Shown here in pieces: positions 2,815-56,060 of a stretch of DNA of 64,000 nucleotides. The number at the start of each line of letters is the position of its first letter. Within the stretch, counting starts at the first letter, position 1. Origin of the DNA: Acidobacteriota bacterium (lineage in GTDB: Bacteria; Acidobacteriota; Vicinamibacteria; Vicinamibacterales; UBA2999). The DNA lies in NCBI GenBank assembly GCA_963169195.1, contig CAUJDN010000040.1, positions 1-64,000 of the forward strand. The letters run 5' to 3'. Both the position numbers and the translations under genes were made by a program. The notes under the pieces are model-generated. The model made no database searches and was not told where the DNA came from. It saw nothing but the letters and a program-made list of their open reading frames with translations.

Positions 2815-3891
2815 ATGGCTGTTCGGCGCACACGACCAGGCACGCGGACTCCGCGTGAGCTTGGCTACTCCTTCCCCGCCGAGTGGGCACGGCACCAGGG
2901 CACCTGGATCTCCTGGCCGCGCCCGGAGGGAATCTCGTTCCCCGACCGGTACCACGAGTCCATCGAGGACGTCATCCGCGTCATCGCCGCCATCGCCCGG
3001 TTCGAGGAGGTGCACCTCAACGTCCCCAACTCGAACTACCGCCGCATCGTCCGCGACGTGCTGGAGGTGAGGGGCGTGCCGCTGCGTCGCGTCCGGTGCC
3101 ACGAGATCCCGACCAACGAGTGCTGGACGCGGGATCACGGCCCGGCGTTCGTCCTGCGGGAGCGCCGCGGCCGCACCGAGGCCGCCGTCGTGGACTGGGG
3201 CTACAACGCGTGGGGCGGCAAGTACCCGCCCTGGGACGCCGACGATGCGGTGCCGACGAGGGTCGCGAAGGGGCTGAAGCTTCCGGTGTTCTCCCCGGGC
3301 ATCGTGATGGAAGGCGGTGCCGTGGACTTCAACGGCGCGGGCACGGTGCTCACCACCACGTCGTGCCTGCTCAACAGGAACCGGAACCCGCACCTCTCGA
3401 AGCCGGAGATCGAGCAGTACCTGAAGGACTACTACGGCCAGCAGCACGTCGTCTGGCTGGGTGACGGCATCGAGGGCGACGACACCGACGGCCACATCGA
3501 CGATCTCGCGCGCTTCGTGGACGAGCGCACCATCGTCGTCGGCGTCGAGGACGACCCGCGAGACGCGAACTTCAGGGTGCTGCAGGACGCGCGGCGCCGG
3601 CTCGCTCGGGCGCGCGACCAGCAGGATCGGCCCTTCGAGATTGTCGAGCTGCCGATGCCTCGCCCCGTGAGCTACAAGGGCCAGCGCCTGCCCGCCACGT
3701 ACATGAACTTCCTGTTCGTGAACGGCGCACTGCTGGTGCCGACGTTCGGGCAGCCCGCGCGCGATCGCCGTGCGCGCGCGATTCTCCAGCGCCTGCTGCC
3801 GAAGCGCCGGGTGGTGGGCGTGGACTGCCGCGCGCTCATCTGGGGCCTGGGCGCCATTCACTGCCTGACGCAGCAGCAGCCGCACTGGTAG
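2815..3891 (+). CDS. aguA: Agmatine deiminase
   Basis: This 358-residue member of the peptidyl-arginine-deiminase-like pentein fold converts agmatine to N-carbamoylputrescine and ammonia, feeding AguB. Diagnostic segments are NECWTRDHGP (101-110), WGYNAWGGKY, EGGAVDFNG, GDDTDGHIDD (His227, Asp229) and the C-terminal AIHCLTQQQP, which supplies the nucleophile Cys350. The usual GGGNIHC is replaced by GLGAIHC, a mild variation. No arginine decarboxylase gene is in the window, so the source of agmatine is elsewhere. The TAG stop is immediately followed by a hairpin-rich repeat block. Confidence 0.93.
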   Translation: MAVRRTRPGTRTPRELGYSFPAEWARHQGTWISWPRPEGISFPDRYHESIEDVIRVIAAIARFEEVHLNVPNSNYRRIVRDVLEVRGVPLRRVRCHEIPTNECWTRDHGPAFVLRERRGRTEAAVVDWGYNAWGGKYPPWDADDAVPTRVAKGLKLPVFSPGIVMEGGAVDFNGAGTVLTTTSCLLNRNRNPHLSKPEIEQYLKDYYGQQHVVWLGDGIEGDDTDGHIDDLARFVDERTIVVGVEDDPRDANFRVLQDARRRLARARDQQDRPFEIVELPMPRPVSYKGQRLPATYMNFLFVNGALLVPTFGQPARDRRARAILQRLLPKRRVVGVDCRALIWGLGAIHCLTQQQPHW

Positions 3892-3985
3892 GCCGCGCGC
3901 TCGCGGGGTGGGCGCCTCCGGCGTGGGCCGGCCTTCGGCCAGTAGGCCGCGCGTTCGCGCGGTGGGCTCGGCTCGGCGTTTTCGA
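3889..3985 (+). repeat. Hairpin / GTGGGC repeat block starting at the aguA stop codon
   Basis: Starting with the aguA TAG, the sequence alternates short GC hairpins with GTGGGC. A GCGCGCTCGCG-type stem is followed by GTGGGC, a second GTGGGC, and GGCCttcGGCC. Then TAGGCCGCGCG-TTCGCG-GGTGGGC repeats the opening almost exactly at 3943-3969. The same architecture follows the stop codon of the DUF504 gene at 55951. No coding potential is credible here. Confidence 0.6.
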
Positions 3986-30223: not shown

Positions 30224-30332
30224 GTGCTTCGACCCCCGTGCTTCGAACCTGCGTGCTTCGAACCTCCGTGCTTCGAACCTGCGTGCTTCGAACCTGCGTG
30301 CTTCGAACCTGCGTGCTTCGAACCTCCGTGCC
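30224..30332 (-). repeat. 15-bp tandem repeat (GGTTCGAAGCACGSA) between DUF547 and SDR genes
   Basis: Six perfect 15-bp units (30238-30327, plus strand GTGCTTCGAACCTSC) and one degenerate unit at 30224-30237 fill the whole gap. On the transcribed strand each unit has a TTCGAA palindrome, and some have GGAGGT. The array begins at the DUF547 stop (TAAGGCAC). The same unit forms the array at 34988. Confidence 0.9.
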
Positions 30333-34982: not shown

Positions 34983-34987
34983 GCTCC

Positions 34988-35121
34988 GTGCTTCGAACCT
35001 TCGTGCTTCGAACCTTCGTGCTTCGAACCTTCGTGCTTCGAACCTTCGTGCTTCGAACCTTCGTGCTTCGAACCTCCGTGCTTCGAACCTCCGTGCGAAC
35101 GTCCGCCCCCTGCTCCTTCGT
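34988..35121 (-). repeat. 15-bp tandem repeat array between nrdJ and recQ
   Basis: Seven perfect units (five with GAAGGTTCGAAGCAC and two with GGAGGTTCGAAGCAC on the minus strand, 34988-35092) plus a degenerate unit. The pattern starts at the nrdJ stop, TAGGCACGAAGG. Unit, orientation and register match the array at 30224. Confidence 0.9.
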
Positions 35122-40346: not shown

Positions 40347-40350
40347 GGTC

Positions 40351-40380
40351 AGGTGCGGGCAGGTGCGGGCAGGTGCGCTC
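40351..40380. repeat. 10-bp AGGTGCGGGC tandem repeat between amidase and kinase genes
   Basis: Three units fill the space immediately upstream of the histidine kinase ATG. The orientation is opposite to that of the related repeats at 4508 and 29404 relative to the gene whose stop is nearest (amidase, 12 nt away). Confidence 0.55.
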
Positions 40381-52464: not shown

Positions 52465-52480
52465 TGGTCAGGGTCTCGGG

Positions 52481-52582
52481 TTCTGAGGTTCTGGGGTTCT
52501 GGGGTTCTGAGGTTCTGGGGTTCTGGGGTTCTGAGGTTCTGGGGTTCTGGGGTTCTCCGGTTCTAGGTTCCAGGGTTCTTGG
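52481..52582. repeat. 8-bp TTCTGGGG array with 24-bp higher-order period
   Basis: Ten 8-bp units (52481-52560) occur in the order GAGG, GGGG, GGGG repeated three times, then TTCTCCGG, then decayed units to 52582. The plus strand carries regular GGGG runs with four-base spacers, a G-quadruplex pattern. The array lies directly upstream of the minus-strand biotin carrier gene. Confidence 0.9.
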
Positions 52583-52595
52583 ATTCCAGCGATTT

Positions 52596-52721
52596 CACTC
52601 CCCACTCCCCACTCCCCACTCCCCACTTCCCACTTCCCACTTCCCACTTCTCACTTCTCACTTCTCCCTTCCCACTTCTCACTTCCCACTTCCCACTTCT
52701 CACTTCTCACTTCTCACTTCC
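52596..52721 (-). repeat. 18-unit heptamer array overlapping the biotin carboxylase stop codon
   Basis: Eighteen units of CACTYCY (plus) / RGRAGTG (minus) run from 52596 to 52721. Four CACTCCC, then CACTTCC and CACTTCT blocks show unit-by-unit spread of variants. The minus-strand reading GGAAGTGAGAAG places the accC TGA inside the array, as at 9874-9880. Confidence 0.92.
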
Positions 52722-54231
52722 CCCGAAGGGCCGTCGCCCGGGCATCCTGGCGCCACCGGCTGGGGGCTGAGTCCACGGCTGGCAGGGGGACCGCGCCCGC
52801 GGTCATCTGCCGCACGGCGACGGCCACGGTCGCCAGCACGGCGTGCTCGTCGTCCGGGGCGGTGAGCGGCTGGCCGTGACGCGCCCCGAGCTTGCGGTCG
52901 ATGAATGTCGTGTCGAAGCGCCCGGCTCGAAACTCCTCGTCGTCCAGGATCCAGCGGAAGAACGGGAGGGTGGTGCGGATGCCCCGCACTTCGTATTCGG
53001 CAAGCGCGCGCTTCATGCGGGCCAGGGCGCCCGGGCGATCCTCGGCCCATGTGATCAGCTTCGAGATCATCGGGTCGTAGTGGATCGGCACCTCGCCCCC
53101 TTCGTACAGGCCGCTGTCGTCGCGCACGCCCGGGCCCTGGGGCACGCGCAGGCCGAGGATGCGTCCCGGCGAGGGCATGAAGTTCGTGTCGGGGTCCTCG
53201 GCGTAGATGCGGCACTCGAGTGCGTGCGCCCTCGGCGCGAGCAGCGCCTCCGGATCGAGCGTCAGCCGCTCGCCGCGCGCGATGCGCACCTGCCACTGCA
53301 CCAGGTCCACCCCCGTCACCATCTCGGTGATCGGGTGCTCCACCTGCAGCCGGGTGTTCATCTCGAGGAAGAAGCACGAGCCGTCCTGGTCCAGCAGGAA
53401 CTCGATGGTGCCGGCGTTGGTGTACTTCGCCGCCCGCGCCACCGCCGCAGCGGCCGACGTGATCCGGCGCCGCAGATCGGGCGAGACGGCGAGCGACGGG
53501 CTCTCCTCCACCACCTTCTGGTGACGGCGCTGGATGGAGCACTCCCGTTCCACGAAGGGCACGACCGTGCCGAAGTGATCCCCGAGCAGCTGCACCTCGA
53601 TGTGCCGCGGCGCGAGGATCCGCCGCTCGAGATAGACGGCCGAATCGCCGAAGGCCGAGCCCGCCTCGGAGCGTGCGGCGCGCAGCGCCCCGGGCAGCTC
53701 CCCGGGCGCCGACACCATCCGCATGCCCTTCCCGCCACCGCCCGCCACCGCCTTGAGCATCAGCGGGTAGCCGATGCGATCCGCGACGGCGAGCACGTCC
53801 GCGTCCGCGACGTCCGCGTCGAGGGGCTCCTCGGTACCGGGCACCACCGGCACGCCGGCGGCAATGGCCACCTGCCTCGCCGCGGTCTTGCTGCCCATCA
53901 GCGTGATGGCCTCGGGTGTCGGACCGATGAAGACGAGCCCGGCGTCCCGGCAGGCGGCCGCGAAATCCGCGTTCTCGGCGAGAAAGCCGTAGCCGGGGTG
54001 CACCGCGTCGGCGCCGGATCGGCGCGCCACCTCGAGTATCCGGTCGATCCGCAGATAGCTGTCGCGGGGAGCATCGGGGCCGACGTGGTAGGCCTCGTCG
54101 GCCATTCGGACATGCAGCGCCGCCCGATCGCAGTCCGAGAACACGGCGACCGAGGCGATGCCCAGATCGCGGCAGGCGCGGATGACGCGAACCGCAATCT
54201 CACCCCGGTTCGCGATGAGGATCTTCTGCAT
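52714..54231 (-). CDS. Biotin carboxylase subunit of an acyl-CoA carboxylase
   Basis: The 505-residue protein has an ATP-grasp fold (MQKILIANRGEIAVRVIRACR) and Gly-rich loop VAGGGGKGMRMV. It also has RHIEVQLLGD, CSIQRRHQKVVEESPS, FLLDQDGSCFFLEMNTRLQVEHPITEMVTG and RIYAEDPDTNFMPSPG. It carboxylates biotin using bicarbonate and ATP. Length and motifs fit AccC or the split alpha subunit of propionyl/methylcrotonyl-CoA carboxylase. The final residues, ALRGK, run into the heptamer array, which supplies the last codon and TGA. The ATG at 54231 is divergent from a cNMP-binding gene. An AGCAT-N4-ATGCT inverted repeat lies between them near 54255. Confidence 0.88.
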   Translation of the reverse strand: MQKILIANRGEIAVRVIRACRDLGIASVAVFSDCDRAALHVRMADEAYHVGPDAPRDSYLRIDRILEVARRSGADAVHPGYGFLAENADFAAACRDAGLVFIGPTPEAITLMGSKTAARQVAIAAGVPVVPGTEEPLDADVADADVLAVADRIGYPLMLKAVAGGGGKGMRMVSAPGELPGALRAARSEAGSAFGDSAVYLERRILAPRHIEVQLLGDHFGTVVPFVERECSIQRRHQKVVEESPSLAVSPDLRRRITSAAAAVARAAKYTNAGTIEFLLDQDGSCFFLEMNTRLQVEHPITEMVTGVDLVQWQVRIARGERLTLDPEALLAPRAHALECRIYAEDPDTNFMPSPGRILGLRVPQGPGVRDDSGLYEGGEVPIHYDPMISKLITWAEDRPGALARMKRALAEYEVRGIRTTLPFFRWILDDEEFRAGRFDTTFIDRKLGARHGQPLTAPDDEHAVLATVAVAVRQMTAGAVPLPAVDSAPSRWRQDARATALRGK

Positions 54232-54961: not shown

Positions 54962-55696
54962 ATGAGACGACCGGCCGGCCTGGCAGCGATCGTCATGACC
55001 GCGTGGGCGCTCTGGGCCTGCGGCGGTGCGATCACCGCCGAGTCCCAGGATCGGACCGCCGAGGCCCGGCGCATGGTGGACGCCCAGCTGCGCGCGCGCG
55101 GCATCCACGACGAGCGCGTGCTGGCCGCCATGCTCAAGGTCCCGCGCCACCGCTACATCCCTCCCGAAATGCAGCGCTCGGCATACGCCGACAGCGCGCT
55201 GCCCATCGGCTACGGCCAGACCATCTCGCAGCCCTACATCGTCGCGTTCATGACCGAAGCCCTGAAGCTCGAGCCACAGGACGTGGTGCTGGAAATCGGC
55301 ACCGGCTCGGGCTACCAGGCCGCCATCCTCGCCGAGCTGGCCCGTGAGGTCTACACCATCGAAATCGTGGCCGGGCTGGCCGAGCGTGCACGGCGCACGC
55401 TCGAGGCCGAAGGCTACCGCAACGTCCACGTGCGGGCCGGCGACGGCTACAAGGGCTGGCCCGAGCATGCGCCCTTCCCGAAGATCATGGTCACCGCGGC
55501 GCCCGAGGAGGTGCCGCCCGCGCTGGTCGAGCAGCTCGCGGTCGGCGGGACGATGATCCTGCCGGTCGGTCCGCGAATGGGCAATCAGGAGCTGCGCATC
55601 CTGACGAAGACCGGGAAGGGTGTCATGACCGAACGGAGCCTGCCGGTGCGGTTCGTCCCGATGGTGAAGCCGCCGGGCGACGGGTCCGAGCCGTGA
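54962..55696 (+). CDS. pcm: Protein-L-isoaspartate O-methyltransferase, predicted exported lipoprotein
   Basis: The 244-residue protein has the PCM fold: RRMVDAQLRARGIHDERVLAAMLKVPRHRYIP, YADSALPIGYGQTISQPYIVAFMTE and VLEIGTGSGYQAAILA (SAM-binding), with VTAAPEEVPPALVEQL. It methylates damaged Asp/Asn residues in proteins. Unlike cytosolic PCM, it begins with MRRPAGLAAIVMTAWALWAC, a lipoprotein-type signal with lipobox LWAC, suggesting action outside the cytoplasm, where SAM supply is unclear. The stop overlaps the GTG of DUF504 (GTGA). The upstream in-frame ATG at 54941 is less likely. Confidence 0.85.
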   Translation: MRRPAGLAAIVMTAWALWACGGAITAESQDRTAEARRMVDAQLRARGIHDERVLAAMLKVPRHRYIPPEMQRSAYADSALPIGYGQTISQPYIVAFMTEALKLEPQDVVLEIGTGSGYQAAILAELAREVYTIEIVAGLAERARRTLEAEGYRNVHVRAGDGYKGWPEHAPFPKIMVTAAPEEVPPALVEQLAVGGTMILPVGPRMGNQELRILTKTGKGVMTERSLPVRFVPMVKPPGDGSEP

Positions 55697-55953
55697 TCCC
55701 TGTCCAGGATCTCCTTCACCGGATCCGATGGGATCCCTCCCTGAGCGGCTTGCGCTTCGAGATCGCGTACCTGGATCGCGTGGCGCATCGGCTCGAGCGC
55801 GTGCCGCTGGCCGACGTGCGCTTCGACCCGGACGAGCCGTTCGGGTTCGAGGCCGTGGCGGCCGACGGCGTCGAGCGCTTCATCCCCTACCACCGCGTGC
55901 GCGAGGTCTACCGGGACGGCGTGCGCATCTGGAATCGCCCGTCACACGAGTAG
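55693..55953 (+). CDS. DUF504 / MJ1316-domain protein (predicted RNA-end recognition)
   Basis: The 86-residue protein starts at GTG overlapping the pcm stop. It has the MJ1316 (DUF504) pattern: LLHRIRWDPSLS, YLDRVAHRLERVPLADV and VERFIPYHRVREVYRDG. The domain has been predicted to recognise 2',3'-cyclic phosphate RNA ends and often travels with RNA-repair genes. Here it converges on rtcB, whose cofactor archease is just beyond, so an RNA-repair group is likely. The TAG is followed at once by a hairpin-GTGGG repeat block, and the next 162 bp contain no gene. Confidence 0.82.
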   Translation: MIPVQDLLHRIRWDPSLSGLRFEIAYLDRVAHRLERVPLADVRFDPDEPFGFEAVAADGVERFIPYHRVREVYRDGVRIWNRPSHE

Positions 55954-56050
55954 CCCAAGCGTTCTGCGCGGGTGGGCTCGCGCTTCGCGCGAGTGGGGCA
56001 TCGCTGGCGCGATGGCAGGCCCGTGCATTCAACGCACGGGTGGGCGGCGA
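55951..56050 (+). repeat. Hairpin / GTGGG repeat block at the DUF504 stop codon
   Basis: Starting in the TAG, hairpins (TCGCGCttCGCGCGA, TCGCtggcGCGA, CGTGCattcaacGCACG, GGCGGCgaaGCCGCC) alternate with GGTGGGC or GTGGGGC. The same design follows the aguA stop at 3889. Confidence 0.6.
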
Positions 56051-56060
56051 AGCCGCCTCC

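Follow-up and report, generated by a model that had tools for sequence, protein, structure and literature searches.

Two small hairpin arrays behind genes of an Acidobacteriota bacterium probably belong to a dispersed palindrome family of the REP/BIME kind

Studying the 64,000-nucleotide stretch of Acidobacteriota DNA analysed here (the window) reveals two blocks of short hairpins, one behind an aguA-like gene and one behind a gene encoding a DUF504 domain (Table 1). An earlier note on this DNA had described hairpins separated by GTGGGC behind these two genes, which was borne out in outline, the separators being GTGGG or GTAGG, and both genes are identified by Pfam. Block 1 (3888-3966) is made up of four short hairpins set between five GTRGGC tags, which start at 3888, 3908, 3923, 3942 and 3962. 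The TAG stop of the aguA-like gene (3889-3891) lies inside GTAGGC, the first of these tags. Block 2 (55972-56057) has tags at 55972, 55993 and 56040 and a degenerate one at 56015, and is faced from its other side by a convergent rtcB gene. The tags follow each other in steps of 20, 15, 19 and 20 nt in block 1 and of 21, 22 and 25 nt in block 2; the step of about 25 nt given in the earlier note thus comes close for block 2 (21-25 nt) and is wrong for block 1 (15-20 nt). The hairpin arms differ in both blocks, just as the note had it.

Table 1. Genes and repeat units of the two blocks, in positions of the window.
Feature	Position	Strand	Support
Gene upstream of block 1, aguA-like, PAD_porph / agmatine-deiminase family	2815..3891	+	ORF; PF04371, E 1.7e-122
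Block 1, unit 1: GTAGG tag, imperfect 16-nt hairpin CCGCGCGCTCGCGGGG, TGGG tag	3888..3912	+	
Block 1, unit 2: GTGGG tag, short 4-bp hairpin CGCCTCCGGCG, TGGG tag	3908..3927	+	
Block 1, unit 3: GTGGG tag, 15-nt hairpin CCGGCCTTCGGCCAG (5/6 pairs), TAGGC tag	3923..3947	+	model R1, 37.5 bits
Block 1, unit 4: GTAGG tag, perfect hairpin CCGCGCGTTCGCGCGG, TGGG tag	3942..3966	+	
Gene upstream of block 2, MJ1316 / DUF504 domain	55693..55953	+	PF04457, E 1.5e-21
Block 2, unit: GTGGG tag, 17-nt hairpin CTCGCGCTTCGCGCGAG (7 bp), TGGG tag	55972..55998	+	model R1, 26.3 bits
Block 2, hairpin CATCGCTGGCGCGATG, then degenerate tag GCAGG	55999..56014	+	
Block 2, hairpin CCCGTGCATTCAACGCACGGG, then GTGGG tag	56020..56044	+	
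Block 2, last hairpin GGCGGCGAAGCCGCC, loop GAA, opposite orientation	56043..56057	+	

The repeat unit consists of TRGG, a 15-nt hairpin (6 bp, 3-nt loop) and a second TRGG; longer and shorter forms also exist. Written as a pattern, a tag T(A/G)GG, usually GTRGG, is followed by a hairpin C-NNNN-C-T[T/C/G]C-G-N'N'N'N'-G and by the second tag. Units occur singly or in arrays, either head to tail with a common tag and a period of 19 nt, or in opposite orientation. Longer arrays contain composite repeats, each built of several hairpins with both orientations represented, for example two copies in L012 (8825-9156). A covariance model, R1, was built from nine 15-nt units, one of them from the window, namely unit 3 of block 1, so that its R1 score in Table 1 is that of a training row. 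The genome to which the window belongs (5.0 Mb) yielded at least 94 R1 matches at E<=1 with the best 150 of 7569 first-look candidates scored, so a family of such structures, which the earlier note had thought worth searching for, does exist.

With the tags as the only criterion, all six Watson-Crick pairs are present in 38 of the 67 intergenic TRGG-N15-TRGG sequences of this genome and in 54 of 78 in the related genome SJ725 (G004), compared to fully paired sequences in 0 of 18 in the reversed-sequence control of either genome; the sequence stretches were mostly fetched for R1 matches, and these paired fractions describe the family and not the whole genome. Across 91 distinct units the Watson-Crick share of the pairs is 80%; it drops to 27-43% if the partner is slid and to 53% (58% at most) if the arms of different units are shuffled. 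The earlier note's view of arms that vary under preserved pairing is hereby confirmed. The sampled DNA of the two species contains 44 distinct perfect units and 20 distinct 6-nt arms. First and last pair of the stem are almost always C-G, the loops are mostly TTC, TGC or TCC, and 11 of the 16 possible inner tetramers of all-G/C stems occur. Imperfect tag-selected units often have 4 or 5 pairs, including a recurrent CCTCGC-TNC-GCTCGG with two mismatches.

The window by itself would leave room for the view that a GC-rich genome simply contains chance hairpins which were multiplied by ordinary duplication. GTGGGC alone is not enriched there (74 vs 73 expected), and short palindromes abound in GC-rich DNA, a tag-free hairpin count over 458 kb giving 3173 real against 2907 simulated hairpins and no useful signal over this background. 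Counts of GTRGGC-gap-GTRGG in seven genomes, mostly without the family, did not rise above the reversed-pattern control either. GTAGGC is enriched in the window (29 vs 13.5 expected). However, the perfect pairing of tag-selected units in both genomes, as opposed to their controls, refutes such an origin, and the absence of R1 matches at E<=0.001 from 38 relatives speaks against it as well, so that we consider it very improbable. The convincing evidence for the family is genome-wide: the unit matches together with the pairing of tag-selected units.

The units are placed non-randomly with respect to genes, as called with a codon-usage caller made for this analysis, which is not a standard caller. 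In the window's own genome 59 of 67 units are intergenic, while intergenic DNA makes up 10% of the total. Arrays were found there in 3 of 113 divergent gaps versus 32 of 416 other gaps (p 0.06), and in SJ725 in 0 of 64 versus 31 of 191 (p 9e-5). In both genomes the units occur in both orientations and mostly behind stop codons. The first unit begins exactly in the stop codon at seven gene 3' ends among the 37 arrays of the own genome and at eight among the 32 arrays of SJ725, and the stops touching a unit are TAG in 18 of 19 cases, compared to a base rate of 471 in 1294. Pre-existing TAGG sequences may have been used as target, which would explain the start of units in TAG stops. One hairpin array (L007 1480-1580 in the own genome, L294 in SJ725) lies in frame within a membrane-protein-like gene, where it encodes a variable Pro/Thr-rich linker; it is longer in SJ725.

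The location behind genes and the near absence from divergent gaps would fit the opinion of the earlier note, which took the hairpins for a selected RNA structure. As such they might be terminators without a T run or stabilisers of 3' mRNA ends, preserved by selection on pairing in the transcript. Because the units are palindromes, pairing as such cannot separate a DNA structure from an RNA structure, and several observations argue against RNA. By definition TRGG, and not a T run, follows the units, and there is no terminator-like site (GC hairpin followed by a T run) at block 1 between 3700 and 4200. Folded as RNA, block 1 is not better than shuffled sequences (z +0.45); block 2 is more stable than its shuffles (z -2.54). 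The Rfam search of the 64-kb window at the gathering threshold gave no match. Moreover, the units are found in both orientations, and REPs (repetitive extragenic palindromes) likewise lie behind genes.

The range of the family is also narrow. SJ725, with 48 R1 matches at E<=0.001, is as rich in units as the own genome, and is the exception among 39 other relatives: the remaining 38 (3 congeners and 35 further genomes) have no match at this threshold. No match at E<=5e-4 was found in 395 further genomes sampled from the phylum under stricter filters, with 19 candidates scored per genome. Within the genus, units are therefore present in two of five genomes and absent from three. The aguA locus illustrates this. 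In SJ725 hairpins follow directly 3' of the TAG as in the own genome, the counterpart of unit 3 being CCGGCCTTCGGCCGG, whereas the same locus in SJ70 (G001), M_surface_10_m1_251 (G002) and L079 has no hairpins after the gene. With units missing from three of the five congeneric genomes and from all more distant genomes searched, a conserved regulatory RNA fits poorly.

The two carriers are sister species with 88.4% identity over 350 kb of aligned DNA. In 131 orthologous gaps units are present in both species 15 times, in one species 4 times and in none 112 times; including gaps from additional SJ725 stretches (175 in total) the numbers are 15, 7 and 153. This positional concordance is inflated, because the stretches of both genomes were mostly chosen for model matches. 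In unselected stretches (the window, L252-L291 and L011-L030, of which the last lie on contigs that had shown earlier matches) none of three sites is concordant by the strict criterion, and two still have looser hairpins. Arrays common to both species differ by gain or loss of units, by changes in the loop and by changes in stem length. Only one candidate (L192/L235) was found for a recent insertion that can be cleanly paired with its empty site, and this is not at TRGG.

In 32 orthologous hairpins, from which those with less than 80% identity, gaps or less than 70% G+C were excluded (a version at 70% identity was also computed), 172 of 198 pairs are unchanged. One-sided changes affect 19 pairs, with 12 transversion and 7 transition mismatches; where both sides changed, five pairs are still paired and two are unpaired. 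Chance alone would give about 0.46 compensated changes (Poisson p about 1e-4), and the covariation which the earlier note had named as support is therefore indeed present. Four of the five strict compensated changes are A-T/G-C exchanges, i.e. transitions, which can pass through G-U; G-C/C-G flips account for one of five strict and three of seven lax compensated changes. Since compensated changes exceed chance and one-sided changes are nevertheless common, pairing is held above chance and far from absolutely.

These compensatory changes, most of them of the kind that can pass through G-U, speak for a selected RNA. They are outnumbered by the 19 one-sided changes, of which 12 are transversion mismatches. 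Of the claim of a selected RNA structure we can thus retain that pairing is kept, and not its RNA nature, in view of the two orientations, the lack of a T run and of an Rfam match, and the restriction to two species. Altogether we regard the hairpins as unlikely to be selected RNA structures. An RNA role is possible, and nothing here requires one.

Palindromes could also be kept perfect by mutation itself, if one arm is rewritten from the other during hairpin-templated repair or template switching, without any selection, and if arrays grow and shrink by slippage of units. Such a process would account for a nearly free stem sequence that is perfectly paired all the same, and for orthologous arrays which differ mainly in unit number and stem length and still contain perfect palindromes, such as the perfect palindromes of 18 and 13 nt at the same orthologous place in L188/L222. 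The G-C/C-G flips mentioned above are in line with it too, but four of the five strict compensated changes are transitions and not flips, unrepaired one-sided changes are common (19 of 198 pairs), and the constant tag and loop as well as the two-species range are left unexplained. Therefore we judge copying between the arms quite unlikely as the explanation.

The features of the units have more in common with dispersed DNA palindromes of the REP type, which favours an unrecorded relative of the REPs over a conserved regulatory RNA. In the literature, a GT(A/G)G REP is a tetranucleotide GT(A/G)G 5' of a palindrome with variable composition (PMC3686654), the GTAG families including the SMAGs and the REPs of Pseudomonas and E. 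coli (PMC3733652). Further traits given there are alternate stems per genome, arrays known as BIMEs and a location downstream of genes (PMC3733652, PMC3686654, PMC2817692), where the REPs are plausibly transcribed (PMC3733652). Most stems of known REP palindromes are described there as 6-9 bp long with small loops, and the palindromes as occurring as singles, dimers and clusters and as being kept despite mutation. The units described here resemble this picture in having a GTRGG tag beside a short, GC-rich palindrome of variable composition and in being dispersed, many-copy, almost only extragenic and mostly downstream of genes; within one genome they have complementary alternate stem residues, and they are found single, paired and grouped in both orientations. 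They differ in that the tag, one-ended in known REPs as far as these descriptions go, is two-sided here, with single-tagged hairpins counted loosely, that head-to-tail neighbours have a tag in common, and that as many as 20 different 6-nt arms occur. A further difference to the REPtron arrangement is that no cognate rayt gene flanked by TRGG units was found.

The REPINs of P. fluorescens, for which compensatory changes in the hairpin spacer are reported (PMC3116915), are likewise palindromic, extragenic and high-copy. A REPIN joins two highly conserved REPs in inverted order around a variable spacer, while in the family described here every unit on its own is a hairpin of variable sequence. 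Listed publications on REPs in Acidobacteria and on palindromic repeats in Vicinamibacter contain no apparent description of a TRGG family. Short mobile GC hairpins are also found in mitochondrial genomes, as double-hairpin elements and other mobile GC palindromes. All these differ from our units in being organellar and in having other tags.

REPs are linked to a Y1 transposase, so the resident genes of this type are of importance. There are two Y1_Tnp (PF01797) genes in the own genome and two in SJ725; the Y1 proteins of the own genome are known here from PF01797 matches and mutual similarity alone, and those of C19 (own genome, G000) and C167 (SJ725, G004) are 89% identical. No R1 unit was found at E<=0.05 in about 5-12 kb on each side of the four genes (L218, L219, L250, L251), the stretches covered being 15-20 kb long. 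All four sit between other inverted repeats of the types GGGGACAGTCCCTGT, GGGGCCTGGCACGG and CGCCGGGGCTTCAGCC, and we therefore rejected the resident Y1 genes as source of the units. Flanks of this unrelated kind at all four genes mean that the link defining a REP and its RAYT was looked for and not found. Since both genomes are incomplete MAGs, a cognate gene may be missing from the assemblies. Y1_Tnp genes also occur in G003 and in many relatives without TRGG units.

Apart from the units, the four Y1 genes look like Y1 transposases flanked by terminal inverted repeats (TIRs). One survey describes TIRYT or TIRtron elements as Y1 transposases with unrelated terminal inverted repeats, gives a TIR consensus GGGGWSAS and places a TIRYT group in Acidobacteria (PMC3733652). 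Y1 genes with TIRs of this GGGGWSAS type (GGGGACAG) occur in the own genome, and the inverted repeats differ in sequence from the TRGG units. Inverted repeats of Y1_Tnp genes were seen in L009, L010, L169, L250 and L251, and the GGGGACAGTCCCTGT and GGGGCCTGGCACGG types are also found alone at other loci.

Taken together, the two blocks probably represent a dispersed DNA palindrome of the REP/BIME type, arranged in small arrays. The family itself is a REP-like variant with two-sided tags and nearly free stems and without an identified transposase, and is not a proven member of the REPs. Its units would have spread in the common ancestor of the two sister species. The spreading enzyme may, by analogy to TnpA-REP (RAYT, a Y1/HUH enzyme) with the GT(A/G)G REPs, recognise a folded single strand with a short unpaired tag. 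As such an enzyme would read shape, tag and loop only, the letters of the stem would be free to drift as long as the stem pairs. For a family fixed only in these three features the TnpA-REP of E. coli would be the best available model: binding and cleavage are still seen when the upper stem is swapped to its complement (PMC8266576). At most sampled common sites arrays are present in both species with units gained, lost or changed, and present turnover therefore seems to be mainly local.

One may tentatively go further, to a proposal that we hold to be rather doubtful: that the family is defined by shape alone, with the two-sided tag and the T-N-C loop fixed and the G/C stems roaming, that it stays paired either through a shape-reading enzyme acting on single-stranded DNA or through templated correction from arm to arm, and that it has expanded in one sub-lineage of the genus without a recognisable REPtron, anchoring at TAG stops. 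The usual picture of REP-type palindromes is one of discrete families that each go with a RAYT of their own. Nearly free stems and two-sided tags in a family that lacks a cognate enzyme would help to show which features (shape, tag, loop) a mobilising enzyme reads, and also by what means a palindrome is preserved. The two species, 88% identical in nucleotides and with common array sites, and the congeners free of the family allow a direct comparison of birth and turnover of the repeats.

Several other short repeats were observed. At one orthologous gap (L030/L262) one species has a hairpin array and the other an 8-bp tandem repeat. Both species have such 8-bp tandem repeats (GGTTCTGA/GGTTCTGG, TRF consensus TCTGGGGT) scattered over their intergenic DNA, with sites at 52474-52579 of the window, in the gap just mentioned and in L293. 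Tandem arrays of a 15-bp unit are seen twice in the window, with the nearly identical units GTGCTTCGAACCTGC and CGTGCTTCGAACCTT in about seven copies each (30224-30331 and 34987-35096), and a further array there consists of 18 copies of the heptamer CACTTCC (52596-52722). Repeats of 10 nt of the GTGCGGGCAGGTGCGGAC type lie between genes in L199 (1497-2160) and L238, with lengths that differ between the two species, and a short array of CAGGTGCGGG is found at 40350-40377 of the window as well.
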